In this document: in pieces, positions 2,075 to 49,600 of the stretch
How the letters are laid out: the number at the start of each line of letters is the position of its first letter
Position numbering within the stretch: the stretch's first letter is position 1
Source: Ignavibacteria bacterium
GTDB lineage: Bacteria > Bacteroidota > Ignavibacteria > Kapaibacteriales > UBA4661
Assembly: GCA_014654705.1 (NCBI GenBank)
Contig: JACVZY010000051.1
Coordinates: forward strand, 124,001 to 188,000
Reading direction: 5' to 3'
DNA length: 64,000 bases
Notes under the pieces: model-generated
What the model was told of the DNA's origin: nothing
Database searches by the model: none
What the model saw: the letters and a program-made list of their open reading frames with translations, nothing else
Position numbers and translations under genes: made by a program

Positions 2075-5000
2075 TTACGGTTCAGAAGGATGGGCAAGTT
2101 TTTTACTTGTATTGCGAAGCATAATCTCTACCATGCGGCAGTAGAAGCGCCCTTCGGGCAGGTCGTTGTCGTAGAGCAGTACCGCTTCGCCCACACCATT
2201 CATGGTCTTGCGCGTGGCGCTCATTCCGGGCAACATGTCGGCAACAGTCTTTGCGCGGTCGGTGGAAAGGCGTTTATTGTACGCGGCATCGCCCACACGG
2301 TCGGTGTAGCCCAGGATGATTGCTTCGGTCTCCGGTTTGATGCGGCTTTTGACCACGTTAATAATTTGAGTGTTTTGATTATTGAGCGTGGCTTTGTCAA
2401 AGTCAAAGAACGTGAGCGCAAAACGGCTTATTTGCTCGTCGTGTGCTGTGTCTTTTGCAAAGGCAGTACCCTTCGCCGAGGAATCCCGCACCGTGCGAAC
2501 ATCACGCAATGATTCCAGCGAAACAAGTGTTGGTAAGGTCTGGGCAGCAATAAATTGCCCCGCACGATTGATAGCACGCAGACGGAATTGCATCCGCGCT
2601 GTCTTGGCGACTGCTCCAATACCCTGCAAATCAGCACCGCTGAGGCGATAATCAAGCGTTGCAGGTGGCGTGCCTGCGCCCGAAAGCGTCGTAATAATGC
2701 GTTGTTTGCCTGATGATGATGGTGGCGTCGTAGGCGCTCCGGCTGGTGCTGCCAGAAGATCTAGTGACCATTCGGTAATATCTTCCTGCGATGTTGCCAT
2801 ACAGGAAAGCCTTACAATATCAGGCTCGGCAGTCCAAAGCACCTCGTCGCTGGCAACAGGCGACATTGCATCTTGCGGTTCAAGCAGAATTTCTACGCGC
2901 CTGTTCTCGGCAGCACCGTCACTGTCTGTGTTGTTCGATGCGCGTTCCGGCTTGTTTCGGGCTTGCGCTTTCAGTCGTTTTTCGTCAATACCCCACGTGG
3001 CTGTGAGGTATCGGCGCACTGCTTCGGCACGCTCTTGTGAAAGGCGCATATTACCTCGCTCTGCGGCAACATCGCTATTGCAGCCGATAATTCGTGCAGT
3101 GAGCCTAGCATCATCACGAAGGCGCTTCCCAAAAATGTTCAGCACGTGGTAATAGTTGTCAATGCCACGTACTTGCTTGGCTTTCAGGCTTGCTGCTGTT
3201 ACAGTCTGCATCAGATTTGTTTCGGTAAATTCTCGTGTTTGCTCGCGGCTGAGTGGGCGGTAGCGAACAGGGATTTCAGAGGAGTTCTCCTCGAAAAACA
3301 CGTAGTTCAGAAGTGGACGAATAAGTGTGGTACGCACTTCCCGTGCCTTGAGCGTGTCTCCCACGCCAAGGGCAAACGTCGCGCCGGTATTGTCTAAAAA
3401 CGTTGCGCTTACTGAAGCACTAATCTCTGCTGCCACTCCTTCGCCGAGAATCGGCATGATGACAGGCTTTTGCACCCCCGCAATTTCTATACGGATTCCG
3501 CCATTTGCCACACCCACGTTCACGGGCGCAAAAGATATTTTTGCAACTAGACTATCGCCAGCACTAAGGCTCAAGGGCGCACGTCTGCTCAGGGAAAGCG
3601 AAAATTGCTCGGTGTCGGGTCCCGATTTCTGTAAGCGAGTAATAGTCATGGGAAGTGTTCCCGTATTGCGCAGTACCGTTATGGTTGTGTCAAATGTTCG
3701 GCGCAGAAGTCGTGCTCCAAAACTAAGTGCCGGAGCACTCTCGAAGCCTTTGGCGTTGCTCTCCCCGCGAATGATGGTGCGTAGTGTGTCTGTCCAGGTA
3801 ATGACTTCGAGAGTTGCGCTTCGTTGCCCACGCTCTTTTGGTGCAAAACGAAACTCCAGTGCTTTGGCGCTGTCGCTTGGTACATCGAAGGGTGGCAAGC
3901 CTGAAACAAGCGAGAAATCATCCGCATGAGCACCAACAAGACGAATTTCTTGTACCCTGACAACGGATTTATCAGGATTTGTCAGTATCGTGCAAACAGA
4001 ATCTCTCACCATACCCTGCATAATTGCTCCCATATTGACTTCGCGCAAGGTTGCGACAGGTGCGATAACATTAAAAACTTTCGATGTTGCTTCTTGTAAA
4101 TATCCCCCGCCGATATCCCAAATCCTCCCGACCGCATCAACGCCCGCTCCTACAATGCGGGAACCGTCGGGACTAAATTCTGCATGATGAAAGCCACCGG
4201 CTTCTGCCGGAAGTGTCAGTTCCAATGCGCCTGTTTGGGCATCCCACACACGCACCGCGCCATCGGCAGATGCCGTAACAATGCGCCTGCCATCAGGGCT
4301 GTACCGTGCTGACCAGACGTTCCCTTTGTGCTTCAACTTCAAGAGCTGTTTTTCGGTTTTTATATCCCAGATGCGAGCGGTCTGATCATTGCTTGCGGTC
4401 GCAATGCGCTGTTCATCAGGGCTGAAGCTGGCAAAGGTTACTTGGTCTTCGTGTCCGGCAAAGTATTTGATATTTGTTGTAGCGCCGCTCCAAAGTCGTG
4501 CGGTGTAGTCCCCACCTGCCGTGAGAACGAATTTACCATCGCGGCTGTACTGCGCGGAGTAGAGCCAGCCGGCAGCAAACATTGTGATAAAGCCGTGTGG
4601 GCGTAGTATCGTTCCTCTCCAACGAATAGCCATACCATTATCGGTCGTAGTTATAACCTCCGTGCCATCGGGCGAGAACGTTCCAAAAAGAAAGCGTTGC
4701 TGGTCTTGATTGGTAAATGATAGTTTTTCTGAGCCAAACATCTTTGCCTGGCTAAAAAAGAACTGCCGTAAGCCCTGTCCGTAGGAAGTGTTCAGGAGAG
4801 AGCCTGTTTCGGCATCCCAGAGGCGAATGGTGTTATCGTAGCTGGTTGTGAGTACGCGCTTTTCATCGGGACTAAATTCGGCTGAAGAGACAAAATTTCC
4901 ATGCCCCTCGAAGGACTGGAGTACTGTGCCTGTGTAGGCATCAAAAATCTTTGCTGTGCGGTCGGCACTTGATGTTAGCACCTTTGAGCCATCTTTGTTG

Positions 5001-6703
5001 AACATTGCGGTAAATAATGACCCCGCGTGTGCATCAAGGGTTACAGCAGCTTCTACCGAAACTTCTTTTGGTATCCAGACCTGCTGGGCGCGGACAATCA
5101 TTGGTCGTGCATTGCCGGAAAGCAGGCGAGCGGAGGAAACAGGCGGCACACGCCATGGAGAGCGCAGTCCGTTGGTCTTGGGCGTAATGGGCAGCCACGA
5201 GACGCCCATATCAAGGCTGTAATCCAACGCAACATTCTCCGACGGCATAATCCCTGACCAAGCGATAACGGTATCTGCACCGGAGTACAGCGTTGAAGCG
5301 CCTTCCGGTAGCGTTACTTGCATTTGCTGCGTGGCGGCAGCTTGTTTGTTGCCATAGACAGCACGGGCAAAAATTGAGACCGGAGCGCACAAATCGGTAC
5401 GAACATCGATGCGGGCTATATGCGGCACGGAATCTATGCCCGTGAAGCCGACGGTGAAGGTTGCTGTTTCGTCTGCTTCGATGCGAAGCGGGAATTTCAA
5501 ACCGCCAACGTCGAAAAGGGCATTATTGGTTTCAATGCCAAGAATGGTAACAGGCTGATAGGTTGCTTTGAGAGTGATGCGCTGCCCTTGCGAATTCCCC
5601 ACTCCCACATCGCGGAAGGTGAGCGAGCGTGGCGTGGGGGCGATGCGAATAAGTGAAGAAGCGGGCGCAACATAACGAACTGTTGCCGAAGTCGCACCCG
5701 TTGTAAATTTAGCACTGTTGCTGATACGCACAACGGCATCTCGGTCGAGTGTGCATCCTGCTTTGCTTGCCCATGTAATTGTTGCAGGCTGAATATTCTG
5801 CGTTTGAAAAAGAATACGGCGATAAATACTCGTAAGTGCCTCGCGCTCGGTGATATTCTCAAACCAAGCACCACCAGTGCTGTCGGCAATAGCTCGCAGC
5901 ACGGGAGGCATTTTCATTCCAAGCGTTATACAATAGACCGTAATGCTATCTTTGCGAGCTGCATCAATAATTTTTCGCTCCGAACCGCCGCCCAGCCCGT
6001 CGGTAACAAACACGACGATACGGCGATTTTGCCCCCGTCGCGCCATACTAAGCGCTCCGGTCATCGGTTCGATAAAACCTTTGTCATAGTCCGTGCCGTT
6101 CAAAGGCTTCAGCGTTTGCAGGGCATTCAATAATTTGGTGCGTGAGTGCGTAAAATCTTGATTGAGATAGCTGTTGTCATCAAAGCTGGAAAAGGCGCAC
6201 TCCGACACATCAAGTGCAATTGTCCGTACCCAGTCAGCACCTGCTTCTTGAGCGAGGAAAATACGACCATCCATCGTCATCGAGCCGGATACGTCCAGCG
6301 TCAGAACAGCAGAGACCGGTTTGAAATCAAGTTCGCTTGGAAGTTCGACCGATACAATCTCACGTTCTGCACCGCTTTCAGTCAAAGAAAAATCTTCTTC
6401 CTTCAAGCCTGTAACCGGGCGACCATCCTTGCTAAGTACATAAAACTTTGCTTTCACGAGCGGGAAGCCCGATGCATCCGAATTGAAAACCGTGAAGGAC
6501 TGCGCGGACAAATGCTGGCAAGGTGCAGCAATGACCACGAAAAAGAAAGTCCACACAATAGCCAGGCACTGGGGACGGCAAGACGCGAAAAACGAAGGTA
6601 CAAGGTACATCATACAAGTACAGACACTAAACCAAAAATTCGATATTGTTATGATTGTTGTGCGAAAGATACGAAAAATGAAGCGCATCCAAAAACTCTG
6701 CAT
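2075..6703 (-). CDS. Secreted VWA - WD40 propeller - double OmpA-like protein
   Basis: A very large exported protein of about 1,512-1,542 residues. A hydrophobic signal segment (ending near APCQHLSAQ) precedes a von Willebrand A domain at about residues 125-300 with the MIDAS motif DVSGSM. Immunoglobulin-like segments follow, then a WD40-type propeller at about 556-866 with repeated blades of the form FSPDG...ARIWD. Two choice-of-anchor-like beta domains come next, and finally two OmpA-like domains (about 1138-1278 and 1421-1541). The first OmpA domain keeps LSQERAEAVRRYL and ENRRVEI; the second keeps GYTDRVGDAAYNKRLSTDRA but has CRMVEI instead of NRRVEI. The start is uncertain: the ATG at 6703 gives an unusually long N-terminus, while ATGs at 6613/6610 put the signal peptide first. 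The OmpA domains suggest a peptidoglycan-anchored periplasmic or outer-membrane location. Function unknown. Confidence 0.85.
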   Translation of the reverse strand: MQSFWMRFIFRIFRTTIITISNFWFSVCTCMMYLVPSFFASCRPQCLAIVWTFFFVVIAAPCQHLSAQSFTVFNSDASGFPLVKAKFYVLSKDGRPVTGLKEEDFSLTESGAEREIVSVELPSELDFKPVSAVLTLDVSGSMTMDGRIFLAQEAGADWVRTIALDVSECAFSSFDDNSYLNQDFTHSRTKLLNALQTLKPLNGTDYDKGFIEPMTGALSMARRGQNRRIVVFVTDGLGGGSERKIIDAARKDSITVYCITLGMKMPPVLRAIADSTGGAWFENITEREALTSIYRRILFQTQNIQPATITWASKAGCTLDRDAVVRISNSAKFTTGATSATVRYVAPASSLIRIAPTPRSLTFRDVGVGNSQGQRITLKATYQPVTILGIETNNALFDVGGLKFPLRIEADETATFTVGFTGIDSVPHIARIDVRTDLCAPVSIFARAVYGNKQAAATQQMQVTLPEGASTLYSGADTVIAWSGIMPSENVALDYSLDMGVSWLPITPKTNGLRSPWRVPPVSSARLLSGNARPMIVRAQQVWIPKEVSVEAAVTLDAHAGSLFTAMFNKDGSKVLTSSADRTAKIFDAYTGTVLQSFEGHGNFVSSAEFSPDEKRVLTTSYDNTIRLWDAETGSLLNTSYGQGLRQFFFSQAKMFGSEKLSFTNQDQQRFLFGTFSPDGTEVITTTDNGMAIRWRGTILRPHGFITMFAAGWLYSAQYSRDGKFVLTAGGDYTARLWSGATTNIKYFAGHEDQVTFASFSPDEQRIATASNDQTARIWDIKTEKQLLKLKHKGNVWSARYSPDGRRIVTASADGAVRVWDAQTGALELTLPAEAGGFHHAEFSPDGSRIVGAGVDAVGRIWDIGGGYLQEATSKVFNVIAPVATLREVNMGAIMQGMVRDSVCTILTNPDKSVVRVQEIRLVGAHADDFSLVSGLPPFDVPSDSAKALEFRFAPKERGQRSATLEVITWTDTLRTIIRGESNAKGFESAPALSFGARLLRRTFDTTITVLRNTGTLPMTITRLQKSGPDTEQFSLSLSRRAPLSLSAGDSLVAKISFAPVNVGVANGGIRIEIAGVQKPVIMPILGEGVAAEISASVSATFLDNTGATFALGVGDTLKAREVRTTLIRPLLNYVFFEENSSEIPVRYRPLSREQTREFTETNLMQTVTAASLKAKQVRGIDNYYHVLNIFGKRLRDDARLTARIIGCNSDVAAERGNMRLSQERAEAVRRYLTATWGIDEKRLKAQARNKPERASNNTDSDGAAENRRVEILLEPQDAMSPVASDEVLWTAEPDIVRLSCMATSQEDITEWSLDLLAAPAGAPTTPPSSSGKQRIITTLSGAGTPPATLDYRLSGADLQGIGAVAKTARMQFRLRAINRAGQFIAAQTLPTLVSLESLRDVRTVRDSSAKGTAFAKDTAHDEQISRFALTFFDFDKATLNNQNTQIINVVKSRIKPETEAIILGYTDRVGDAAYNKRLSTDRAKTVADMLPGMSATRKTMNGVGEAVLLYDNDLPEGRFYCRMVEIMLRNTSKKLAHPSEP

Positions 6704-22066: not shown

Positions 22067-25000
22067 TCAGCGAAGAATAATAGCCGAGCCGCTTGCCAGT
22101 TGTTCGGCTGTTTGTTCTCGTATCATTTGCCACATATACTGCCCGGCGGGTAAGTTGGTAATAGGTATCGAAAGCGGCGACAGCTGTGCGCTGAGGGTGT
22201 GCCGTGATGTTTGCCGTTCTGCACCATAGATATCGAAAAAGCGAACTATTACTCGTTCTTCCGATGGTGCATCTGCGGTGAGCGGCGTTATATCAAGCGC
22301 CACGACATCTGAAGCGGGTTGTGGGGAAAGGCTTGCTCTCAATGCAATCACCGTGCGGCGAGGAGATAACCTGACGAGTGCATTGCAGCGGGACATGGCT
22401 TCTAGTGCTTCCTCTACGGTTGTGCCTACAATCGCAATGTTTTCACGCTCACAGAATTTTTCCAGCACAAGAGTATCCCTAAAACTTGCCACTACATTCG
22501 GAGCAAAGCAGACGTGAAGCGGTTTTGTTTCGCCTGCCGCCACGAAGAACGGTAGTTCAGACGGTGGAAGAGAAAAGATGATATTACCCTTCAGCCAGAG
22601 TGCATCAAGCTGTAACGAATAGGCACTCAGGTTTTCTATGCGTACTGTCGCACAAGTTAGCATTTGAGCCGTTGCTGCCGACACAATAATCGGATAAGCC
22701 GAACTGATGATTTCGCTTCCAAGCGTCAAGCGCACATAAAAGCCCGGAATAGTACGCTCTATCATTCGCACATTTCCTGCAGAATCACGAACGGCAACGC
22801 GGAATGCCGCATCACTACGCCTGTTGGGTAGGCTTACTCGTACTTGCATCACACCATCGGCGCGGCGTTCTGAGCGAATCGTACAATTTGATGCACTCAG
22901 GATTTCCACACGCTCCACGCCGGAATCAAAGCGCCGATTGTCGCTTGCAAGATATTCCATGCTCCGTTCGCACTCGCCAATGGTTTCAGTGACTGCTGGC
23001 TCTTGAGTGTCAGCAAAGGCTTCCACACTTACTGCCAGAATCGGACGGGTCGTGCAGCCGCTCTTGAGAACAAGTGTATCGGTGAATGTTCCACTCTCGA
23101 ATGTTCTCACACAATAGTCCAGCACTCGCCGTTCGCCCGGCTGCACAATAAACGGCAGTGAGATATTGGCAGTCAAATGCCGCCCCACAAAGCCGATGGA
23201 ATCTATGCGGTGAGGAAACGCCCCATAATTCACCAGCGACAAGCGAAAACACGTACTGCGTCCGGTGATAAGCGATGCCGTCGTCGTGAGTAATTGTACC
23301 CCTTGCAAGGTAGAATCTCTATGAATCGTAAACCCGGGAATGTCAATACGACTAGTGGTGACTTGCCCAAGCGAATCCATTGCTTGAATCGTTGCCGTGC
23401 CGTCTTGATACGGATTGAGCAGCCGCGCCGTAAATATCAGCGAATCCGGTAAAACGAGACGTTCCAATCCCGATAGTGCAATATTCCTTTGCAAAGAATC
23501 TACCGAAGCGACGCGGTAGAGTTTGGAATCCGTTTGTGCGCTGTCGAAGACCACGCCACGCACACCATCGCAGAGCGCTTGCGTAACGACACGCGGAGCA
23601 AGATTGTCCATTTCCAAACGCTGACCTGCTGTGTAGCCGTAGGACGTAGCATTACCATAACCAAGCGCAAGAACACCGATTGCAGTATCTGCACTCACGC
23701 TATGCAGCCCTTCGCTCACACGCACGTTAGCGAAAGCATAATCCGAAGAATCCGAAAAACGTTGAAACAGTGCAGCACCGATGAGCTGATTATCCACTTG
23801 TACGCTTGGCACAGCACTGAGAGGGGCAATAATGGTCAGGTAATGTTCGCGGAATGCTTCTTCGGTAATCGTGCGACTAATGCGCTGAATGCTCCGTACA
23901 TTCACGGTGCGTATGGCGCGTACAAACTGCTCCGGCGGAGGAATTGCCATCATAAACGGGTCTCCAATGCCGGAGCCGCTTCCGTTGGAGCTTGCATAGA
24001 CAGCAGCATATATCGGCTTGGAGCCTTCGATTATTAAGCCGCGTTCGCGTGTATTTACCGTAACAGCAGATGCAATCGTGGTTTCGTAGAACTGCCCTGT
24101 TTGCAACGTTGTTGCAATTTGTCCGTGAATGCGGATAATAGTTGAGTCCGCACTTGCTATGACCCGCACGGTATGGTTCGTTGCGTCGGACATAGAGGTT
24201 TGCGGTTGCGGGAGTGGCGGTATCAATAACTTCCTTCCCCAAAACTCCACGGGCAAAAGTTGCTCAAGCAAATAATCCCGCGAAATACTCCGCGTGCCCG
24301 CATCAGACAACGCTGAAAGCGGGACGGTGGCTCGTTCATGGCTACTAAAAACGGCAATAGGTTTGTCGGCGGTGAGCACTGTTCCCGTCAAGTCGGCTGC
24401 TGTCGAGACGGTCATATCTGCTTGAAGTAGATACGTTTCTCCGCGTTGCAATGTGATTTCATGCGGCGCACGACCATGAATTTTCGTCAGTGCAGAGGGG
24501 GTAATACGAATGCGGGTGGAATCCGACGTTGCGACAATACCAAGTTGCGAAGGTGTTGGCGGAACAATCCCTGCGCCGTCATCGCCGGGATAGGAAAGCG
24601 CGACAAAACGTGTTCCGGCTGCGTGTGCAGGAAACACCAACGTCCCATCTGCAGATTGATGTGCCGTGCTCAGCGCATAAACACTGACGGGGTTATTGCT
24701 GAGAATGCGTATAGACCGCTTGGAAACTTGTTCGTTTACTCGGAGTTCAATGTTTTTTGCCGGAATGACAAGCGTATAAGCCTGCGCGGGATTGGCTATG
24801 TTAAAACGCAGCAGAGAAGCGCTTCCCGCACTATCACCAAAGCGGATTTCCCCTTGCGTCGGGCGCTCGACGGTGATAAACAGAGAGATATTATCATCAC
24901 CGTCGAGTTGGGCGGTATGGTAATTGGGCGGTATGGTGAGCCAGAAGTCGGTTCCGGCGCTTGTACGTGGTGCTTTGGGCGTAGAAACGCTTTGTGCCTC

Positions 25001-25069
25001 AAGTCTATGATTTACTAACAGAAGCAAGCACAGCATGGTGTAAAAAAAAATCCTCTCATGCTGCTTCAT
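22067..25069 (-). CDS. IgGFc-binding-domain-like protein with T9SS sorting domain
   Basis: A 1,000-residue exported protein. After a signal peptide (about 25 residues, ending LEAQS) comes the pattern AGTDFWLTIPPNY, typical of the IgGFc-binding N-terminal domain (about residues 38-480) found on many Bacteroidota surface proteins. Two beta-sandwich repeats follow with the form VQPGERRVLDYCVRTFESG and VAAGETKPLHVCFAPNV. The last 70 residues have the look of a type IX secretion sorting domain (FFDIYGAERQ, then LPAGQYMWQMI). It is therefore probably secreted across the outer membrane and attached to the surface. The ATG at 25069 begins a good signal peptide. It is the last gene of the sigma-factor operon. 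Confidence 0.83.
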   Translation of the reverse strand: MKQHERIFFYTMLCLLLLVNHRLEAQSVSTPKAPRTSAGTDFWLTIPPNYHTAQLDGDDNISLFITVERPTQGEIRFGDSAGSASLLRFNIANPAQAYTLVIPAKNIELRVNEQVSKRSIRILSNNPVSVYALSTAHQSADGTLVFPAHAAGTRFVALSYPGDDGAGIVPPTPSQLGIVATSDSTRIRITPSALTKIHGRAPHEITLQRGETYLLQADMTVSTAADLTGTVLTADKPIAVFSSHERATVPLSALSDAGTRSISRDYLLEQLLPVEFWGRKLLIPPLPQPQTSMSDATNHTVRVIASADSTIIRIHGQIATTLQTGQFYETTIASAVTVNTRERGLIIEGSKPIYAAVYASSNGSGSGIGDPFMMAIPPPEQFVRAIRTVNVRSIQRISRTITEEAFREHYLTIIAPLSAVPSVQVDNQLIGAALFQRFSDSSDYAFANVRVSEGLHSVSADTAIGVLALGYGNATSYGYTAGQRLEMDNLAPRVVTQALCDGVRGVVFDSAQTDSKLYRVASVDSLQRNIALSGLERLVLPDSLIFTARLLNPYQDGTATIQAMDSLGQVTTSRIDIPGFTIHRDSTLQGVQLLTTTASLITGRSTCFRLSLVNYGAFPHRIDSIGFVGRHLTANISLPFIVQPGERRVLDYCVRTFESGTFTDTLVLKSGCTTRPILAVSVEAFADTQEPAVTETIGECERSMEYLASDNRRFDSGVERVEILSASNCTIRSERRADGVMQVRVSLPNRRSDAAFRVAVRDSAGNVRMIERTIPGFYVRLTLGSEIISSAYPIIVSAATAQMLTCATVRIENLSAYSLQLDALWLKGNIIFSLPPSELPFFVAAGETKPLHVCFAPNVVASFRDTLVLEKFCERENIAIVGTTVEEALEAMSRCNALVRLSPRRTVIALRASLSPQPASDVVALDITPLTADAPSEERVIVRFFDIYGAERQTSRHTLSAQLSPLSIPITNLPAGQYMWQMIREQTAEQLASGSAIILR

Positions 25070-25121
25070 TAGAACGGCAGTGTACATTCTCGTTTTGTAA
25101 GGAGAGACTTTGCAAAAAAGG

Positions 25122-26057
25122 CTATTTCAACTCAACCTGCACAAAAGAGTGTGTAGTTGCCATGATAGTCGCCGTATTATTTCGGAATGCTTTGAGAGTA
25201 TAGAGATTAACTGCAAAACCAGCATAATCCGCAGGAAGCCCTGCTAATTCCTCGCGTGAAAAACTAACGCTCGTCGCTCCGTTAGGAATGCGCTTGATTG
25301 CTGAAGGTACTGGTAACAAGAGGGAAGGGGCGTTTGTTGTACGCTCCTTATCCTTGACATTTGCGACAATAACCACCTCAGCAAACATTCCTTTTGTGGT
25401 ATCATAATTGATTGGAGTGTCCCATTGTAAGGTGGCACCTTTTGACCGCTCAATGACTGCACCAACAGCAGGTGCAGTCATCTTTACTGCTGGTGGTAAA
25501 TCAATACTATTTTCCTCAAGTTGAAGCGGTTCGATGTAGAAGTTTGTTCGGAGTTTACCGGTTGGAAATGACCTTCTCTCTACACCATTCCATGAGATAA
25601 CATCAATGTTAGTAAACAAGCGGTGTCTAGATAACCCGCGCGGTGACAAATCTAGCAGTTCGATAGTACGTTCTGCAATATTGACAGAAGCTCGGCGGGG
25701 AGCAAAGGCAGTATCAATACGTGCCCCATACCAAACGGTTGTTTCCGATTGGTCTGTTCTAAATTCCGTCCGACGATAAACGTATAGATCAATTATTGGC
25801 CATTCGCCGTTGAACGTTATATTACTCGACATTCCGCTCTCTTGCGGCGGCTCAAGCTGGAAACCATTGACAATGCGGTCTCGTTGGGAAAGAAGAGCTG
25901 TACCGGAACCATTGCCGGTCGTAGTGATGACGTTCGGTCCGCCGATAGTATTCGGGTCGGTGCAGGAGACAGCGGCTGTGAGTATAGCTGCTATCAATGC
26001 AAAAGTAATAACCATGCCGCGCAAACGGCTTTGTGGAGAGAGATAAACGTTGTGCAT
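25122..26057 (-). CDS. Hypothetical lipoprotein in sigma-factor operon
   Basis: A 311-residue predicted lipoprotein with a lipobox AAVSC (Cys32) and no recognised enzymatic motif. The C-terminal part (from about residue 195, KMTAPAVGAVIERSKGATLQWD, through to YAGFAVNLYTLKAF) resembles a fibronectin/Ig-like beta domain that introduces comparisons with a value, common in Bacteroidota surface proteins. It lies 51 bp after the anti-sigma-like gene and 52 bp before the T9SS protein gene, all on the minus strand, so it is probably cotranscribed with them and may help display or anchor the T9SS protein. That role is inferred from position only. Confidence 0.75.
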   Translation of the reverse strand: MHNVYLSPQSRLRGMVITFALIAAILTAAVSCTDPNTIGGPNVITTTGNGSGTALLSQRDRIVNGFQLEPPQESGMSSNITFNGEWPIIDLYVYRRTEFRTDQSETTVWYGARIDTAFAPRRASVNIAERTIELLDLSPRGLSRHRLFTNIDVISWNGVERRSFPTGKLRTNFYIEPLQLEENSIDLPPAVKMTAPAVGAVIERSKGATLQWDTPINYDTTKGMFAEVVIVANVKDKERTTNAPSLLLPVPSAIKRIPNGATSVSFSREELAGLPADYAGFAVNLYTLKAFRNNTATIMATTHSFVQVELK

Positions 26058-26108
26058 AGCGAAAGCGAAGAACGTGAGAAAAAATGTTGGTCTGATGAAA
26101 AAAGGAGA

Positions 26109-27437
26109 TTACAACTCAAACGAAATACCATAACTAATACCGACATTCGGCGAAAAATTCCAAACGTCCCGGTGAATGTAGAGCAGCGAACTTGCTTCCA
26201 CGCCCAGAGTGCAGCGCGTTTTGGTGTCAATCGAATATTGCAGTCCAAGCATTGTACGCCCCATCGCACCGATACTTGTACCGCCCAGCGTAAAATTCAT
26301 CACCGGAGAAAATAGGTCGTTCGGCAGGAATGTATGACGATAACTCACACCAGCCCACGCCAAGACGGGATTTTTCTCAATACCGACAATCTGCTCCTGT
26401 TCGGGCAATATCGTCCGATAGCGTAAGAAATATGCTTCCTGACCGACTTCTATTCCCAGTGCGCCTGTGGGCGACAGTGGTAGCATGAGGCTCAGGGCGG
26501 TATTATTGAAGAGAGGATATGAATTTGCTTCAACGGTTGCTTCGGGCAGAGAGCGCGACCGAACCCCGCGAATACCGGCAATAATGCCAAGTTTTGTGCG
26601 GCTAAAAATGGGCGCTTCGGTCGTGTTAGAGACGGGGCGTTCGTGTAGTGGTAATGATGAATTTACTTCTTGCGATAACGGATTGCTACTGGAAGCCGAA
26701 ATGTGTGTGCTTCGACGATATGGATAGCTCGGTTGCGGCTCTTGGGCAATTGGTGTCGGCATCGGCAGTTCTTGTGCTTGCTGTGAGGCTTGCTCACTAT
26801 CGTTAGTTGGCAGACTATTCGGGTGTGAAGCCTGAATTCCGTCTGCGTCGGAGTGGTTTGTAGTGTTTAGGCCGGCAGCATTTTGCACGATGGGAACATA
26901 GCGTACAATCGTCGTTGTTTCACGAATCGTATCGTGTGGCATAAAAGCCTGATTTGTGGGGTCGGAAGCAAGCAATGAAGAGTTTTGAAAGGGCGGTGGT
27001 GCGCCACCATCGGTGATTTTGCTGCCGCCTTGGAACCAACCCGTTTGCAGAAAGAAAAGCACTGCAAAGGCTGTGGCTACGGAAGAAAAAAGACTCAGAA
27101 AAACAGTAAAGAGCGTGGACTGCCCACCGAGCGTAGCGCCTGTACCAACCGCTGCTTGTGGGAGAGTAATAGCTGCGGCTGCGTTTGGGGTTGCACTTTG
27201 GACTGCGCTTTGCGGAAGAGACAAGCCTAGTTCTGCAAAGAGCGCATTTTTTGTGCCGGATGCAGGACGGAGGCTTGCTGCATGGCTCTTGACGGCGGCA
27301 AGCAATTTTAGATGCTCGGTCATCTCTGCACGCAAATCGCTGTTGGCGGAGAGTTCTGCAAAGAGCGCATTTTCGGCGTATTCCGGCAGAAGTCCTTCGC
27401 AATAGAGATGTACTTGTTCTCGAAATGATGCGTTCAT
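26109..27437 (-). CDS. Anti-sigma-factor-like membrane protein with barrel-like C-terminus
   Basis: A 442-residue protein. The N-terminal 105 residues resemble an anti-sigma domain (HLYCEGLLPEYAENALFAEL, then SDLRAEMTEHLKLLAAVKSH), without an evident zinc-finger Cys/His set. One membrane helix follows at 108-131 (TVFLSLFSSVATAFAVLFFL), then a Pro/Ser/Gln-rich linker (about 135-270). The last 170 residues alternate like outer-membrane beta strands (LGIEVGQEAYFLRYRTILPE; WNFSPNVGISYGISFEL at the end). The start is 19 bp after the sigma-factor stop, so the anti-sigma call is supported by context. A protein with one inner-membrane helix and a barrel-like tail is topologically odd. The octet ENALFAEL/KNALFAEL occurs twice in the N-terminal domain. 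Confidence 0.72.
   Translation of the reverse strand: MNASFREQVHLYCEGLLPEYAENALFAELSANSDLRAEMTEHLKLLAAVKSHAASLRPASGTKNALFAELGLSLPQSAVQSATPNAAAAITLPQAAVGTGATLGGQSTLFTVFLSLFSSVATAFAVLFFLQTGWFQGGSKITDGGAPPPFQNSSLLASDPTNQAFMPHDTIRETTTIVRYVPIVQNAAGLNTTNHSDADGIQASHPNSLPTNDSEQASQQAQELPMPTPIAQEPQPSYPYRRSTHISASSSNPLSQEVNSSLPLHERPVSNTTEAPIFSRTKLGIIAGIRGVRSRSLPEATVEANSYPLFNNTALSLMLPLSPTGALGIEVGQEAYFLRYRTILPEQEQIVGIEKNPVLAWAGVSYRHTFLPNDLFSPVMNFTLGGTSIGAMGRTMLGLQYSIDTKTRCTLGVEASSLLYIHRDVWNFSPNVGISYGISFEL
27229..27373 (-). repeat. 22-nt direct repeat within the anti-sigma-like gene
   Basis: A perfect 22-nt repeat occupies 27229-27250 and 27352-27373, exactly 123 nt (41 codons) apart and in frame. Both copies encode NALFAEL. 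It could be an internal duplication or a duplicated binding motif. Confidence 0.75.
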
Positions 27438-27456
27438 GGTCGGTTAAGAATAAAGA

Positions 27457-28038
27457 TTATAATTGATTCAGGTCGTTGATAAAAGGTGAGAGCACTTGTT
27501 TTAAGCGTTCTTTTGCCCGCCAAATACGCTTGGTAACGGTTGTTTCGGGAACGCCCGTCAGCATTGCAATTTCTTGATACGATAGATCTTGATAATGCCG
27601 CAGTACAAAGGCTTCACGAATATCGAAGTCCAAATACTCCAGCCCAATTTCTATCAAGCGCATGAGTTCTTGCTGCTCGTAGTTTCCCGATGAAGGTGGA
27701 ATACTTTGCCGCTGAGGTGTATCGTCGTCCAGTACAACGGTATGCTTGCGTCTGCGCTTGAGATCAATGCAGACATTGCGGGCAATAGTCGTCAGCATAG
27801 CAGGAACGTTCTCCACCACGGTACGCCCTGCCGCGTGATAAAACTTCACGAATGTTTCTTGAAATGCATCATTGCCATCCTGCTTGCCCAAAAGTGCAAT
27901 GCAATACTTGGCAACACGCCCGTGATAACGGTCATACAGTTCCGAAAATGCGGCATTAGCTGTCGGCTTCTGCAATCGGATAGAAAGCAATAATTGCTCA
28001 TCCGAAGCATTGGTATAGGTTATGGCATCTGGTTGCAT
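27457..28038 (-). CDS. ECF-family RNA polymerase sigma factor
   Basis: A 193-residue sigma-70 family factor with only regions 2 and 4. Region 2 (about 30-95) has the core-binding and -10-recognition helices (FSELYDRYHGRVAKYCIALL, DAFQETFVKFYH, TIARNVCIDLKRR). Region 4 (about 130-185) has the helix-turn-helix YQEIAMLTGVPETTVTKRIWRAKERL that reads the -35 element. It is the first gene of a minus-strand operon followed 19 bp later by an anti-sigma-like gene. The ATG at 28038 is preferred to a TTG at 28059. It probably directs transcription of its own operon, including the T9SS protein, but no binding site was identified. Confidence 0.93.
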   Translation of the reverse strand: MQPDAITYTNASDEQLLLSIRLQKPTANAAFSELYDRYHGRVAKYCIALLGKQDGNDAFQETFVKFYHAAGRTVVENVPAMLTTIARNVCIDLKRRRKHTVVLDDDTPQRQSIPPSSGNYEQQELMRLIEIGLEYLDFDIREAFVLRHYQDLSYQEIAMLTGVPETTVTKRIWRAKERLKQVLSPFINDLNQL

Positions 28039-28306
28039 ACAGTAGAGATTCGTCGTCAAGTATCAAGTATGTTAGTGCATCTATAATCAATGACGCAGCA
28101 GCAAAATATTCCTTCCCAACGGGCGGAAAAATTATTATTGCCACAAGACGAAAAAGATTGGGATGTACGGAAAGGAGGATATGTTGGTTACGAAGAGGCG
28201 TGCACGTACCTACTTTGGCGAAAATTTTTCTTTGTTTTATGCGCCAAAAATCGTAAACTGAGGGCTTGTTTTTTCGTTCTGCAATGTTCATCAACTACGA
28301 ACTATA

Positions 28307-36332: not shown

Positions 36333-38402
36333 TTAGCGGATAACGCTAAATTTTTGAGTTACCACGCCGCCATTCGTTACGACTTGGACAAAATATACGC
36401 CCGAAGCAAGATTTTGTGCCGTAATGCGGAACTCATAGACGCCTTGCTCTTGTGTTTCGTTCACCGCCACCGGAGCCACCAATGCGCCAAGCGCATCGGT
36501 AACGCGAACACTCACGAGCGACGGACGCTCAAGCGTGTAGCGCACCAGCACTTCATCCGTAGCCGGATTCGGCGATATGCCAACAGAGCCAATACTATTG
36601 CGTTCTTCGCGGACGCTCACCAGCGTACGACCTGCTGTCTGACCGGCACGATATTCAAAGCTGTTCGGGTCGTATTCAGCCCAGCCACCGTCCCAACGGC
36701 GCACTACACCCGCAGCACCAAACGCTCCGCGATAGCTAACACGCTGAAAGTATGAGTCTTCAATATTTACTGCATCATTGGTATTCGTAAATGCAGCACT
36801 TGCAAGGAATGGTGAATCTGCTGTCGGACGTGGGTCAAACGAATTGGTTTCAATGCGGAAGGGATCGCCAAGACGTGCGCTTGATGGAGAAGCTGCGTTG
36901 ACAACATTACCAAACGCAGCACTAGCGAGCCAATCAGCTGGGATTGCAGGGGAAGTGCCGTCGCGGCGGAGTGCTTCGCCTTTTACGCCATACCAGCTAT
37001 TATTGCGAATTTGAAGCGAGTCGCGCGAAGCAGCACCTTGTCCGGGCGTGCTGAGAATATCAATACCACGTGCCCAACCCAAGAAAATGGAGTTCAAGAT
37101 GGAGGTACGAGCATTACGGCGAATTTGTGCAGCAGCACCGAAATTCGAGTTGTACTGATTTGGATTACGACCAGTTGTCCACGAAGTATCTTGCATAGGA
37201 CCAATCGCTGTGATGTTTGAAAAAATAGGACGAGTAAGGGGTTGATTAAATGAACCGTTTGCATCATTATCCATTTCAAACGACTGGCTCACCGAAACGT
37301 CGGCACGTTGCGCAAAACGCTGGGTAACGCCAAACTGCACACGACCACTCCAGCCATTATCACCATCGAAGTCGTCATCAAGAGTGCCGTTGGCAATAAG
37401 ATAGCGAGCATTCACCGTACCGCCGAACCACTCAAAAGCATCGTCATTGCCATAGCTGCACTGCACGTATTCAATCGTCGTACCGCGACCGACACCACCC
37501 ATAGTGAGCGAGTTCAACTCTTGATTCGGCGCAGCCGCAATACCGGCAAATTCGATGCGCACATAACGCACAACACCGCTATTGTCGTCGTCGTTTGTGC
37601 CACCAAAGTATCCCGCACTGTCGGCAGCAAGATTTGCAATACCGCCCTCAAGCGTCGAAAAACCGCCCGGATGATTGGTGCGAGCACGACCGCAAATAAG
37701 CAGACCGCCCCAGTCGCCCGGCTGGCGCTGACCCGGAGGCGCGGAACTGGTCATTACCACAGGACGCGAAGCCGTACCTTCAGCAAAAATTTGACCGCCG
37801 CGATTAACGCAAATAGCGGAGTTCTGACCAACAGTATCACCGATAATGACTGTACCCGGCGGAATACGGAGCGTACCATTGACGTAGTAGTAGCCGTCTA
37901 GTGCATAAATAGAATCTGCCGAAAGTGTGCGGGTCGTGCCGCGAGCCACAGTTCCTCGAAGCACAACATCAAAACTGGTAGGAAGCGGGCGCACGACCGT
38001 TATCGGACCATTGACCGTTTGCACAGAACTCGGTGTGCCGTCTGCGTTCAGCAGAGTCATGCGCACAAAAAGCGTCGTTGTGGAAATCGAAGGAACGCGG
38101 AAACCGCCATTAAACCGACCACTATAACGTGACCCGCTTGCAATAGTGTTCAACGAATCCAAACGGCTTGCGGTAATTGAGGTAAAAGGACCTTCTTGTG
38201 CGGTGGCATATTCAAAGCGAAAACGGCTTTTGTATGTGCCCGTAGAATCCCAGACAAGATCAACTGAGGTACCGGCACGAAGTGTGGTTCCGGTAGCGGG
38301 TTCGGTGAGACGCAAGGAAGTGGGTTGCGCAAAAGTGGCGATAGTGCAGACCATAAAAAGTGCAAGAAAGGCACCGGTCAGCAAGGGGAAGCGGTTTTTC
38401 AT
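36333..38402 (-). CDS. T9SS-exported surface protein, beta-helix-like
   Basis: A 689-residue secreted protein. A signal peptide (ATFAQ) precedes an Ig-like domain (about 30-130) and a long region of beta-rich repeats with many Gly/Asn/Asp turns, including GYFGGTNDDDNSGVVRYVRI and CSYGNDDAFEWFGG. That region is a recurring Bacteroidota surface-protein pattern I recall as being encoded next to TonB receptors. The last 85 residues form a T9SS type-A sorting domain (VGISPNPATDEVLVRYTLER ... ASGVYFVQVVTNG). The ATG at 38402 begins the signal peptide; a longer frame extends it with unrelated sequence. It lies downstream of the TonB receptor gene on the same strand, but a terminator and a repeat element separate them. 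Confidence 0.82.
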   Translation of the reverse strand: MKNRFPLLTGAFLALFMVCTIATFAQPTSLRLTEPATGTTLRAGTSVDLVWDSTGTYKSRFRFEYATAQEGPFTSITASRLDSLNTIASGSRYSGRFNGGFRVPSISTTTLFVRMTLLNADGTPSSVQTVNGPITVVRPLPTSFDVVLRGTVARGTTRTLSADSIYALDGYYYVNGTLRIPPGTVIIGDTVGQNSAICVNRGGQIFAEGTASRPVVMTSSAPPGQRQPGDWGGLLICGRARTNHPGGFSTLEGGIANLAADSAGYFGGTNDDDNSGVVRYVRIEFAGIAAAPNQELNSLTMGGVGRGTTIEYVQCSYGNDDAFEWFGGTVNARYLIANGTLDDDFDGDNGWSGRVQFGVTQRFAQRADVSVSQSFEMDNDANGSFNQPLTRPIFSNITAIGPMQDTSWTTGRNPNQYNSNFGAAAQIRRNARTSILNSIFLGWARGIDILSTPGQGAASRDSLQIRNNSWYGVKGEALRRDGTSPAIPADWLASAAFGNVVNAASPSSARLGDPFRIETNSFDPRPTADSPFLASAAFTNTNDAVNIEDSYFQRVSYRGAFGAAGVVRRWDGGWAEYDPNSFEYRAGQTAGRTLVSVREERNSIGSVGISPNPATDEVLVRYTLERPSLVSVRVTDALGALVAPVAVNETQEQGVYEFRITAQNLASGVYFVQVVTNGGVVTQKFSVIR

Positions 38403-38514
38403 AGTGAAGAGAATCGGATGATGAAAAAAACTGAAAAAGATGAAGTAGAATTGGTATCGGAGGAGTGGTTGTCTGTGTAGCCATAAGGAATGCCAGTAAA
38501 ATAAGTGAAGAACG

Positions 38515-38622
38515 TTCCTTGGCTTCGGTAGCACAGACATTCCTGTCTGTGAGGTTTGAAGGGGCTTTCAGGAGCTACAGAGGCAAGATGAGCGCGGCGC
38601 TCAGCCTGTGCTACCAAGGAAA
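38515..38622. repeat. REP/MITE-like palindromic element
   Basis: About 108 bp with inverted ends: TTCCTTGG(cttc)GGTAGCACAG on the left and CTGTGCTACCAAGGAA on the right. Inside are a perfect 8-bp hairpin (CACAGACA-ttcc-TGTCTGTG, 38532-38551) and a smaller one (GAGCG/CGCTC near 38590-38602). The structure is that of REP/BIME-type or miniature mobile elements. It encodes no protein, and no second copy was noticed in this window. Confidence 0.7.
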
Positions 38623-38912: not shown

Positions 38913-41756
38913 TTATCGAATGCGGTAGCTCAAGCTAAGGCTATAGGTAGCACCACGAATGTTCGATGCTGTGATAACGCCGCCTTGCTCCCAGAGAAGC
39001 GGTTGATTGAGAATATCGCGGGCAGAGAGTTTTACTTCGAGGCTACCGAAAAGCGGTTGAACAAGGGAAATATCAACGACATTCCGTGGAAGCTCGTAGA
39101 TATGGGGGTCTGCGAAGCTAAATGCTCCCAGTTGACCAACCGAAACAATACGACGACCGGTAATATTGTAGGCAATGTTGAGCGATGTTTTTGTGGTCGG
39201 CTCAGAGAAGAACATCCCGATATTGATCGTGTATGGAGCTTGTCCCCACATTGGGCGGGTGTCATTTAGTCCGCCTTGTGCAACGGTCAACTGCGACTGC
39301 ACGAGCGTCAAATTGGCATTCACCACGAAGTTTTGTCCATATTCCCCAAGAAAGCTAAGGCTTTTGCGTGCTTCCAGCTCAATACCATAGTTGAAAGCAG
39401 TACCTTGTGCGTTCGTGAAGGTTCGCGTAAGTTCACTTTGCTGCGGAAAGATTGTTTCTTCGATCGCATTGGTGAAAATTTTATAGAAAGGGTTAATCGA
39501 GATCACTTCGCCCGGCGCGGGAAACGTTTCGAGGCGTATGTCGTAATTCTGAATCAGTGCCCGAATCAGTGCCGGATTACCTTGGGTAAGCACTTGCTGT
39601 TGGAAATCAAAGAACGCAAAGGGCGCGAACTCACGAAGCGAAGGGCGCGTAAGCGTTTGTGAGGCAGAAGCACGAAGATTCGTGCTGTTATCTAATTTCC
39701 AGAGGATATTCAGCGATGGCAGCACATCAAGGAAAGGAAGGTTTACATTGACCGGCGAGTCATTGATAGCGAAGCCGGTAAGATTCTGCTCATTGTATTC
39801 CAACCGTGCTCCGGCGATAATACGAATCTGAGCGCCCGCTATCTCTAGCGGTACATCAGCCATTGCATAACCGGCGATAAGATTTTCTGAAGCATTGTAG
39901 GCATCGCTGAGGCGTGTGTCTTCAGAAATCCCAAGACCATCTAAGCGGAAATTAGCAGGGGAAAACAAGCGGTCAACGTTATCAATCGGTATAGCAAAGT
40001 CCACGTCAATACCGGCATTGCGAGGCTCGATGATAGTGATGGAGCGGGCAGTAAACGTGCGCTTGCGCTGCTCGAAGAGTCCGCCGGCTTTCACCTTGAA
40101 TGTTTGGAGGGGAATCGTAACATTCACCGCCCCGCTCAAAGAATTTTCGGTTAAGTACGAGAAAAATCTTCCCGCTCGTGTGCCGTCTCCCTGCTGCGAT
40201 TGAATAATTTGGGCTTCAAAGGGCGCATCCGGATTAGCAAGTTGGCGAGCATAGCGAATACGACGGAAGTCGGGTTCGTCGCGAACGGATGTGGAATAGC
40301 TCAAGCGCCAGTCTAGAAGAAGATTTCCGGCATCTTTGAACGTGTGTTCGCCATTAAGCTGCCCCGAATACAATTCTTTTTGTACGAACTGAAAACTACG
40401 AAGCTGCAAATCGAGAAATTGATAGCCCACGTCCTGACCGTCCAAAATAACCGCTTCATCATCGCTAGAGCGATTGTAAATGTTCTTAAAGCTGATGGAA
40501 GAATGATCACCGATTTTGTATGCCAAGTTAAACATTCCGCCCACATTCACTGAACGGCTTGCTTGCTGACCTTTGGTCTGAAAAAGATAAGAACGGTCGG
40601 CAAGAATACCATCGCGAATGATGGTGTTTAAGCCAAAACTATTGCCATAATTAAACGAGGCAATCACACCTAAATCGTTGTCGGCAACATTGTAAACATT
40701 GGTAAACGAAATCCCGACCCCGCCATTAGGAGCGGCTGTGGCGCGTTCTGTGCGCCAAGCATTGGAGTTCATGCGCTGCCCCAGTCCCGTCCAGCGCTGA
40801 ATAGCCGAGGCATCACCACGATTAACACCTGCGAGTAGGTCGTTCATTTCTCGGCGATTAGCAGGAAAATCGCTTGGCAACGCACGCGAAGATGAGCCAT
40901 TGGCAATCCAATCACCATTACTGGAGGGAGAGCCGAAATATTTCCCATTTGCAAGCGTTACATTGGTATTATAGGCGGTGGAAGCATTAAAACGAAGTGA
41001 GAAACCATCAGGGAAATCAATCGTGTTCAGTTGCACCAAACCGCCGGCAAAATTACCCGGAAGGTCAGGCGTGAAAGATTTAGCGACATTGGCATTTTGC
41101 AAAAACTCCGACGGGAACATATCAAAGGCAAATGCTTTTTTATCCGGTTCTGTGGAACTTAGCCCTGCACCGTTGAGCGTTGTGTTATTGTAGCGTTCAT
41201 TGACACCACGCACATAGACAAATTTCCCTTCTGAGAGTGTCACACCCGTAACGCGCCGTAAGGCTTGACCGGCATCGCTGTCCGGTAGTTTTTTGATTTC
41301 TGCCTCGCTAATACCGTCGCTCATCTGAGCAGCATTTTTGCGCTGCGCAAGTATTGCGGCTGCATTATCATTGATGCGAGAAGCCTGAACGACAATTTCT
41401 TCCGTTTTTTTAATGGATGATTCCAGCACGGCGTTGAGTGGTGTCGTCTGCCCGTCGCTTACGACAACGCCTTCAAACGTTTTTGGTTTGTAGCCGATGT
41501 AGTTAAAACGCAGCGAATATGTACCTGCCGGAAGACCCTTGATGCTGAATGTGCCTTTCACGTCAGCGATTGCGCCCTTTTTCGTATTGAGCACTTGTAC
41601 CGTTGCGCCGCGAAGCACCTCGCCGCTTTCACCGTCGCGGATAGCGCCCGTGATTGTGCCTCCTGCTGCGGGAGTTTGTGCAAAAATTACTGATGATACA
41701 GGAATAACACTCGCCAAACAAAGGGAAACAATGAGGAAACGCAGTAACAAGAGCAT
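38913..41756 (-). CDS. TonB-dependent outer-membrane receptor
   Basis: A 947-residue receptor. The signal peptide (SSVIFAQ) is followed by a CarboxypepD-regulatory-like beta domain (about 32-115, GTITGAIRDGESGEVLRGATV ...), the plug domain (about 125-240, with NAAQMSDGISEAEIKKLPDS and RRVTGVTLSEGKFVYVRGV) and a 22-strand barrel ending in SLSLSYRIR. Such receptors import siderophores, vitamins, glycans or peptides using proton-motive force; the substrate is not evident. There is no SusD partner. A T9SS beta-helix-like protein gene lies downstream. A palindrome and a candidate promoter lie upstream at 41822-41858. Confidence 0.93.
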   Translation of the reverse strand: MLLLLRFLIVSLCLASVIPVSSVIFAQTPAAGGTITGAIRDGESGEVLRGATVQVLNTKKGAIADVKGTFSIKGLPAGTYSLRFNYIGYKPKTFEGVVVSDGQTTPLNAVLESSIKKTEEIVVQASRINDNAAAILAQRKNAAQMSDGISEAEIKKLPDSDAGQALRRVTGVTLSEGKFVYVRGVNERYNNTTLNGAGLSSTEPDKKAFAFDMFPSEFLQNANVAKSFTPDLPGNFAGGLVQLNTIDFPDGFSLRFNASTAYNTNVTLANGKYFGSPSSNGDWIANGSSSRALPSDFPANRREMNDLLAGVNRGDASAIQRWTGLGQRMNSNAWRTERATAAPNGGVGISFTNVYNVADNDLGVIASFNYGNSFGLNTIIRDGILADRSYLFQTKGQQASRSVNVGGMFNLAYKIGDHSSISFKNIYNRSSDDEAVILDGQDVGYQFLDLQLRSFQFVQKELYSGQLNGEHTFKDAGNLLLDWRLSYSTSVRDEPDFRRIRYARQLANPDAPFEAQIIQSQQGDGTRAGRFFSYLTENSLSGAVNVTIPLQTFKVKAGGLFEQRKRTFTARSITIIEPRNAGIDVDFAIPIDNVDRLFSPANFRLDGLGISEDTRLSDAYNASENLIAGYAMADVPLEIAGAQIRIIAGARLEYNEQNLTGFAINDSPVNVNLPFLDVLPSLNILWKLDNSTNLRASASQTLTRPSLREFAPFAFFDFQQQVLTQGNPALIRALIQNYDIRLETFPAPGEVISINPFYKIFTNAIEETIFPQQSELTRTFTNAQGTAFNYGIELEARKSLSFLGEYGQNFVVNANLTLVQSQLTVAQGGLNDTRPMWGQAPYTINIGMFFSEPTTKTSLNIAYNITGRRIVSVGQLGAFSFADPHIYELPRNVVDISLVQPLFGSLEVKLSARDILNQPLLWEQGGVITASNIRGATYSLSLSYRIR

Positions 41757-46692: not shown

Positions 46693-49600
46693 ATGCACGA
46701 ATTCCACTTCAATCCCTTCTTCGGTGTGCGCACACGCCGCGTGGTACGGATTGTGCTTGGGATTTTGCTGGTTTTTCTTTTGATCTGCACAACGACTGTG
46801 CTGTTGATAGTGAATGTTCCTGCAACGCGCCAATGGGTCGTAAAATTTGCTACCGAGCGCATCAATTCTGCCTTGGAAGCGGAACTTACGTTCGATGATT
46901 TCAATGGCTCGCTGCTGTACGACCTTACGCTGACCAATGTACGCCTTGTGGCGGCGGGTGACACGCTGCTTGCCGCACGGGAATTGAAATTGAGTTACGA
47001 TATTCAAATGGTCTTTGTCAGGCGTATTGCGCTGAACCACTTGCAGCTTGTGGAGCCGCGAGTGCGCTTACTTAGAGGCATGGATAGTTCGTGGAATTTT
47101 GCCCATATTCTGAAGCCGCCCGCGCCCGGTTCCACACCGAAGCCCTTTCAATGGACTGTTGCTCTACGCGACGTTTCGATAGTGAACGGCTCGATCATAA
47201 CAATAGATTCGCTGCAGTCGCTCACCGATGTCTTTCGCAATGCTTCGCAAAGTCGCTTAAATGCTGCACGGGCAAATATTTCTCACCTCAATCTTGCCCT
47301 CTCTGCCCAATTATTCATCAAAAAAAATGAGTACGCAGTTTCTCTGCATAATTGCTCGTTTCGTGAGGAATCATCAGGATTGGAGCTAAGAAATTGTACG
47401 TTTTTTGCTTCTGCCGATACCTCACGCCTTGAGGTCAATAATTTTATTCTCCAGACGGCTTCCTCGCACACGAGGGTACGGCTCATTGCCGAAAAAGTCA
47501 ATCTCTTCGCAAGCCGCCCTGCATCTGCTTTCCATCCCGATAGCCTCTCCTCCACGTTCCGCAATGCAGAGTTTCAACTCGCCATTCATGCAGATTCTGT
47601 CAGCGCCTATGAGGTGCAGCGTCTTTTGCCAGCCGCCGACGCTTTAAGTGACAGACTGGCGCTCAATCTCGATACCTACGGCACACCGGAGCAAATTTTC
47701 GTTAAGCGACTTGACATTAAGGGCGTAGAAGAGAACGATATTCCGCCCATAACGCTGCTTTCTCTGGACGGAAGTGTGCTGCAACCTTTGAAACCAAGCG
47801 CACTCAACTATTCCGTGCGGCTCAACCCCATGCGTCTTAGCGCAGCCGACGTGCGCCGCTATCTGCCGCGTGTGCCGATGCCCAATCTAAGCGGACTGGG
47901 GACGCTTGCGCTGGAACGCGGAACACTGCAAGGTACGCTGATGACTCTTACTGCGAATGTTCGCGCCGCCAGTGCTGCCGGCAATGTAGAGACCGATTGC
48001 AAATTGAGTTGGCATGATACGCTCCGTTACGAAGCCTCGCTCACAACAGAGCGCCTCAATCTTGCTGCCATCACGCAGAACAGCGAGTTACAGAGCAATT
48101 TGAACACGAAAATTAACCTCACGGGGCAAGGAGCCACGCTCGCCGCACTTATTGCAAAAGTACACGTAGAAGCCTCGCCGTCGGATATTGCCGGACGGAG
48201 TTTTGATGAGCTTGTCCTTGATGCCAACGCACACGATGGAGGAATTATCACTGTTTCGTCATTGAATGTGCATTGGAACAAAGCTGCGGACTTTTTAGCA
48301 GAAGACAATGCCGGAGAAACAGTTGCACGAGAAAGCGATGCCGATAACCTTCACAATCTTCACCAACTTCCCGCCGCCGAACTTTGGGCAAATGGTTGGA
48401 TAAACTTACAAAACCCTGCATCGCCCGCCTACAAACTGGATGCACGGGCAATGCACCTCGACCTCAGCCGTGTGCTGCTTATGCCGGACGCGGCTACGGA
48501 CGCTTCTTTCACGCTGAACGTGCTGGGAAGTGGTTTTGGGGCAGATAGCCTGCGTGGTTCGCTTAATCTTGTGACGCAAGAATTTATTACGCCCAAAAAA
48601 GCCTTCGACCCCTTTAGCATCAAAGCACGCTTGGAGCATCTGCCAACGCCTCAGAACCCGCTTTACCGCGAATTTCATTTGAACTCCGAGCTTGCGGAGG
48701 CACATTTGAAGGGTGTCTTTACGATGCCAGACTTTATTTCTTCTTTTGCGCACACGGTGGACAATTCAATTTTTCTGGTGCGCCGTAAATACCATGTGAT
48801 TCGTGATTCCCTTCAAGCTACAACCTACAACGGTTTGTACCGCCCTCGCCCGGAGCGTCTGAAACCACTTGATGTGGAGTTTGTCCTGAAGCCGCACGAC
48901 CTCACGATTTCTCGTCTTTTTAGCGGTTTTGCGAAAATTCAGTGCATCGGCGATATTCGGGGGACAATGCGTGGTAATACGCATGATTACACGTTCCGTC
49001 TGGATTCATCATCCAGAATTGATGAATTTTTCTACACCGACGGATTTACGCAGGTCAATTTTGCCGACACACGGCTACAAGCCTCCTTCCACAGCGTTGT
49101 TAATGGTGATTCACTCAATGTTGTAGCTGCTTCCGCTCGGATTCGGTCGGATTCGGTCTTTCGTTTTAATGATTTTGTGTTCCGCCACACCAAAGCCGAA
49201 GCCGATTATCGAAATAATGTATTCGCCTTTGATGTGAATTCAGTGTGGGACGATAGCCTTTTGGTGTTCTACACAAAAGCGCGACTGGACATGAACACTA
49301 AGGACGCAGCATTTGTTCTGGATAGCGCATGGATGCTCTATCGCAGCAATATGGAATGGTCGAGCGTTGGGAAAATTACGAGCGTTTTGAATAAAGAAGG
49401 CTTACTCGTGGAGAATATGACACTCCGCCGACCGAAGGCTGAAACCGTATATTTGAGCGGTTTAGTGTGGTTTGATCATTTTTCTAATGCGCTTCTAACC
49501 ATAGAATCTATGCCGCTTCAAGACATTAACCGTCTTTTTCCGCCTGCCAATCGTATTCCTACGCTCGAGCCGCTTCGTGGCACATTGGAGCGCATGGAAT

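Follow-up and report, generated by a model that had tools for sequence, protein, structure and literature searches.

An ECF sigma factor operon in an Ignavibacteria bacterium with a predicted envelope-spanning Dma-type anti-sigma protein and T9SS-type cargo

A four-gene cluster on the minus strand of an Ignavibacteria bacterium likely constitutes an envelope-spanning sigma/anti-sigma operon that regulates itself and, with it, a lipoprotein and a surface protein of T9SS type, that is, a self-contained unit for surface sensing and display. The case is built on features computed here, namely gene order, domain architecture, barrel fold, conserved gene adjacency, a conserved promoter motif and T9SS tails at the family level. 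The window refers to the whole stretch of DNA that was analysed (64 kb), in which the operon comprises the following features.

28089-28116, minus strand: predicted ECF-type promoter, GGAAGGAAT-N10-TGCGTCATT, ~50 nt 5' of the sigma gene ATG
27457-28038, minus strand: ECF sigma factor gene, ATG start, 193 aa
26109-27437, minus strand: Dma-type anti-sigma protein gene, 442 aa
25122-26057, minus strand: lipoprotein gene, 311 aa, with lipobox AAVS-C32 (Cys32) and a C-terminal beta-rich domain
22067-25069, minus strand: IgGFc-binding-like surface protein gene, 1000 aa, with IgGFc_binding PF17517
22070-22327, minus strand: putative T9SS type A C-terminal sorting domain of the IgGFc-like protein, from family-level matches

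The four genes occupy 22067-28038 with gaps of 19 nt (between the ECF and Dma genes), 51 nt and 52 nt, as the original prediction had stated. The open reading frame calls also allow a TTG start at 28059 for the sigma factor, giving 200 aa, and an ATG at 25087 for the IgGFc-like protein. Since a single ECF promoter precedes the sigma gene and the spacing is tight, the genes probably form one operon in which the sigma factor controls the lipoprotein and the surface protein, as had been proposed. The assignment of the first gene to the ECF sigma factors holds: sigma70 regions 2 and 4 (Sigma70_r2 and r4_2) exceed their Pfam cut-offs and TIGR02937 exceeds its own, and the ECF models matched are general ones, the profile libraries being without an ECF21 model. 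The nearest relative, 71% identical, lies in a genome of the same genus (G005), and the genome that contains the window has 21 ECF matches.

The second gene was originally described as encoding an anti-sigma-like membrane protein, and this description was correct as far as it went; a C-terminal outer-membrane barrel had gone unnoticed. A Pfam profile search found no family in the protein, and thus no FecR domain. An AlphaFold2 (AF2) model, calculated from an alignment of 32 homologues, divides the chain into four parts.

27228-27437, minus strand: N-terminal cytoplasmic helical domain, putative sigma-binding, residues 1-70
27045-27119, minus strand: single inner-membrane TM helix, residues 107-131 (AF2)
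26595-27044, minus strand: disordered Pro/Ser/Asn-rich periplasmic tether, residues 132-281, ~150 residues
26112-26594, minus strand: C-terminal 8-stranded outer-membrane beta-barrel, OmpA/OprF-like, residues 282-442

The N-terminal domain is modelled as four helices (residues 3-13, 19-31, 33-56 and 60-69; pLDDT 76-97), and weak matches to RseA_N and zf-HC2 occur in this domain in 3/32 and 4/32 of the relatives, respectively. It would bind the ECF sigma factor. The TM helix has a Kyte-Doolittle peak of 2.3, and the corresponding value exceeds 1.6 in 63/66 relatives. The tether has pLDDT values of ~38-54, mostly below 50, and varies in length across relatives from approximately 87 to 189 aa (median ~137). 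The barrel is modelled with a pLDDT of ~95 and resembles known outer-membrane structures (OprF, Z 15.5; NspA, 15.0; OmpA, 14.4; OmpW, 13.4), to which class of protein Foldseek likewise matches it, while a sequence search of the PDB with the Dma profile gave no match. The chain ends in Phe, a residue common at the termini of outer-membrane barrels, in 34/66 relatives. Taken together, the helical domain, TM helix, tether and barrel of the model lead to the prediction that one Dma chain spans both membranes, from the cytoplasm to the outer-membrane barrel.

In Bacteroides thetaiotaomicron, the Dma anti-sigma factors have been described as having this same domain order (PMC13088901). Judged by that description, the proteins share an anti-sigma domain, a TM helix, a disordered tether and a C-terminal barrel; in both, the gene adjoins an ECF sigma gene, occurs in several copies per genome and is followed by further operon genes. 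The window protein differs in its Ignavibacteria-type lineage and in the apparently chimeric origin of its two halves, and its operon has as cargo, in place of BT_1555-1557 (DUF4943, DUF4858 and an enzyme-like protein), a lipoprotein plus a surface protein of T9SS type. Like FecI/FecR, the system would pass a signal from the outer membrane to an ECF sigma factor; unlike FecI/FecR, which uses a TonB receptor together with FecR, it combines a predicted barrel and anti-sigma domain in one polypeptide. The TonB/FecR-type signalling to which the operon had been compared is therefore not supported as an analogy, as there is no FecR and no TonB receptor among the four genes and the anti-sigma protein carries its own outer-membrane barrel.

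The pairing of the two genes is conserved in the order. In each of the 66 distinct pairs, from 31 genomes of the order, the gene next to the ECF gene on its downstream side encodes a Dma-type protein, so the adjacency is not due to chance; these pairs are the best ECF matches whose downstream neighbour was readable and thus represent a part of all ECF genes. The genome of the window alone contains eight Dma-family profile matches at about seven places. Under a strict lipobox rule, the third gene encodes a lipoprotein in 45/66 cases, compared with ~16% of control ORFs; several of the misses resemble lipoproteins by eye, and many of the mature N-termini read C-x-x-P-x-D-[IL]-[DN]. The original check for adjacency of the four genes in relatives thus has a mixed outcome. 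The ECF-Dma pair recurs throughout, and mostly so does the ECF-Dma-lipoprotein trio, but a conserved four-gene order is ruled out, as an IgGFc gene follows ECF-Dma only in this genome.

The Dma architecture is the rule across this whole order of Ignavibacteria-type bacteria, with several copies per genome. The family profile found no full-length match in the sampled genomes beyond the order, and the ECF neighbours in sampled Bacteroidia were mostly short proteins with no clear Dma. In a genome from another order of the same class (G187), two ECF genes (L184 and L197) are followed by genes for proteins of 431-442 aa that have a single TM segment around residue 100 and C-termini resembling barrels, which probably represent the Dma architecture outside the order. 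Whether the published restriction of Dma to Bacteroidota holds depends on the taxonomy used: NCBI assigns the lineage to Ignavibacteriota, and the grouping used in the genome searches unites other classes with it in one phylum. Two variations on the pair were also observed. A second, divergent ECF and Dma-like pair in G005 (L069 3053-5147) has a conserved barrel and an N-terminal domain without the usual conserved pattern. At L084 (10209-10631) and L083, a small possible lipoprotein (~100-140 aa, no Pfam match) lies directly behind the Dma gene and is itself followed by a predicted outer-membrane protein.

The two remaining products of the operon are putative envelope and surface proteins. The lipoprotein had been recognized from the beginning, and the lipobox at Cys32 bears this out; its AF2 model has a mean pLDDT of 64, and the Foldseek matches, to Ig/FnIII-like proteins and to Zcp, are weak (TM ~0.2-0.3) and led to no family assignment. 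The last gene had been read as encoding an IgGFc-like protein with a T9SS-like tail. The IgGFc_binding domain is clear (PF17517, E=6e-58, at ~23660-24649), and the window copy is one of nine matches in this genome. The tail is established at the level of the family, where TIGR04183 matches 15/19 and PF18962 16/19 of the IgGFc-like homologues; in the window copy alone, the sequence is divergent and falls under the profile threshold. Machinery for T9SS export is present in the genome, as a 2541-aa frame of contig C69 matches SprA_N with a score exceeding the cut-off. The same genome has two further Dma operons that end in T9SS-tailed proteins. The last gene of the C4 operon encodes a BNR/Sortilin-type protein whose tail scores 25.0 bits, slightly short of the cut-off (27). 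In the C79 region, three lipoprotein genes and a 138-nt gap precede the gene for a 1155-aa protein whose tail exceeds the cut-off at 34.7 bits. These proteins are unrelated, so T9SS-type cargo recurs in a non-homologous form.

Other genes of the window were also noted. A 735-aa protein (36333-38540, minus strand) has a T9SS tail that scores 39.6 bits with PF18962, exceeding the Pfam cut-off, and adjoins a TonB-dependent receptor (38913-41756, minus strand). A 1542-aa protein (2075-6703, minus strand) has the unusual combination of WD40-type propeller repeats and a C-terminal OmpA domain, and a TamB-like protein of 1649 aa (46693-51642, plus strand) matches NF047952 with an E value of 1e-11, well under the curated cut-off.

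The regulatory part of the proposal depends on the promoter. The element was first spotted by eye in aligned upstream regions; it can also be read as GGGAAG-N16-CGTC and fits the general ECF promoter plan, GAAAC-N16-CGTC. The site at 28089-28116 is the sole match without mismatch in the window, and the 5.7-Mb genome has two exact sites, both 5' of ECF-Dma operons. The G005 orthologue has the same element with identical spacing despite diverged flanks, and other ECF-Dma operons of the family are also preceded by it at a fixed spacing. At the family level, 13/18 upstream regions contain the motif and 5/18 are without it; 200 dinucleotide shuffles gave 0.3 on average and never more than 1. Order-wide, the count is 13/64, all from the family's 18 and none beyond the family. 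As the pattern was set after inspection and some of the sites are orthologous, this evidence is strong without being independent. The C79 operon has a private variant of the motif with one exact copy in the genome. Because the exact forms are nearly private to each operon, the upstream sequences suggest that each sigma factor acts locally, on its own operon. In agreement with this, a Dma operon of B. thetaiotaomicron is autoregulated, given that deletion of dma2 raises the expression of das2 (log2FC 4.54) and of the downstream operon gene bt_1557 (log2FC 6.00) (PMC13088901). A search for a promoter motif shared with T9SS genes had been suggested; the exact motif is found before the operon and not before T9SS component genes, where weaker variants may occur. 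The link to T9SS machinery genes is thus not upheld, and local autoregulation is likelier than control of the machinery because the exact motif precedes only two ECF-Dma operons.

Local control of the sigma/anti-sigma pair could still leave the last two genes outside its reach. The pair may regulate itself and a distant regulon, which might serve the homeostasis of envelope or vesicles as with Dma1/Dma2, with the lipoprotein and IgGFc genes having landed downstream with a promoter of their own. A free-standing lipoprotein and IgGFc-like pair does occur on contig C38 (L056 3586-7688), overlapping by 4 nt and with no ECF gene nearby, its IgGFc-like protein being 59% identical to that of the window; the window lipoprotein and IgGFc genes could therefore carry their own regulation. 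By eye, the region upstream of the C38 pair has no clear promoter match. The IgGFc paralogues in relatives are likewise not beside ECF genes, and the other homologues of the window lipoprotein stand alone. However, just 51 and 52 nt separate the genes in the window, operons of this class usually encode a lipoprotein in third place, the only other genomic site of the exact motif precedes the second ECF-Dma operon, and two further Dma operons of the genome carry T9SS-tailed cargo. Independent control of the downstream genes is accordingly regarded as unlikely, and control of all four genes by the operon sigma factor is preferred.

The phylogeny of the operon indicates that its parts have different histories. 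The window sigma factor is sister to the sigma factor of L053 in G005 (support 100/100), the N-terminal domain of the window Dma is sister to that of L053 (100/95), and both proteins place the two within a clade of seven members. A different barrel is present in the remaining six, where the third gene mostly encodes predicted outer-membrane proteins of ~250 aa. The window barrel groups instead beside the C4 type (90/78), the operon of which contains a lipoprotein. A sister relationship between the window barrel and that of L053 is rejected (AU test, p 2e-5), as is an ECF tree that leaves the window out of the seven-member clade (p 1.5e-5). Placement of the window barrel at the base of its six nearest sigma relatives is not rejected (AU test, p 0.47), so the claim of a swap rests on the rejected L053 sister relationship and on the ECF tree. 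By these sequence comparisons, the window Dma is a natural chimera whose sigma-binding half and barrel derive from different subfamilies, and the simplest reading would be a single event that replaced the barrel and the cargo downstream of it while the sigma-binding module was kept. A more speculative reading, put forward tentatively, is that Dma operons are modular cassettes for surface sensing that deploy T9SS-exported cargo, the barrel and the adjoining lipoprotein being a matched sensor pair swapped as a unit between sigma/anti-sigma modules; the natural barrel swap of the window makes this idea testable.

The joint change also bears on the direction of signalling. Conceivably, it is the T9SS-exported protein or the lipoprotein that acts on the barrel, thereby informing the sigma factor of export status. 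The logic would be comparable to that of PorA of Porphyromonas gingivalis, a T9SS CTD protein for which a role in passing a surface signal on to PorXY-SigP has been proposed (PMC7712824). The barrel and the lipoprotein that follows it differ jointly from those of the nearest sigma relatives, with their mostly predicted outer-membrane third genes, but this reflects a single swap event and a physical interaction is conjectural. The IgGFc gene is moreover missing from nearly all Dma operons and therefore cannot be a general signal. Such reverse signalling is considered improbable as the explanation of the operon; some feedback from the surface protein or lipoprotein to the anti-sigma protein is possible, the one hint being that barrel and lipoprotein changed together here.

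That the sigma factor regulates expression of the T9SS machinery, like SigP of P. gingivalis, can hardly be maintained despite the T9SS-type cargo in the operon and the T9SS genes in the genome, as the exact motif occurs elsewhere only before the second ECF-Dma operon and a whole-genome search with two mismatches gave 6 matches in unrelated neighbourhoods, compared with 11 for a reversed-pattern control. The two systems share an ECF sigma factor connected with T9SS, whereas PorXY-SigP relies on two-component activation, targets T9SS component genes and has no Dma, and the exact promoter motif of the window is local to its operon.

In the preferred autoregulatory reading, the Dma-type protein would span the envelope, bind the ECF sigma factor and keep it inactive. 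When the barrel senses a change at the outer membrane, be it a ligand, an assembly state or tether tension, the sigma factor would be freed and would then transcribe its own operon from the promoter at 28089-28116. Cotranscription of the four genes would yield more of the sigma factor and the anti-sigma protein, and also of the envelope lipoprotein and of a surface protein that the type IX system exports for display. The cell can thus probably sense its outer surface directly and respond by switching on surface proteins.

Experimental work on Dma proteins comes from a single gut species, in which they influence colonization and the production of vesicles. Across the order described here, Dma operons look to have promoters apparently private to each and local cargo consisting of lipoproteins and sometimes T9SS surface proteins. 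The natural barrel swap in the window offers a handle on which part of the system sets the signal and the output, and the order-wide occurrence of Dma operons points to direct sensing from the outer membrane to the cytoplasm, with local outputs, as a general strategy.
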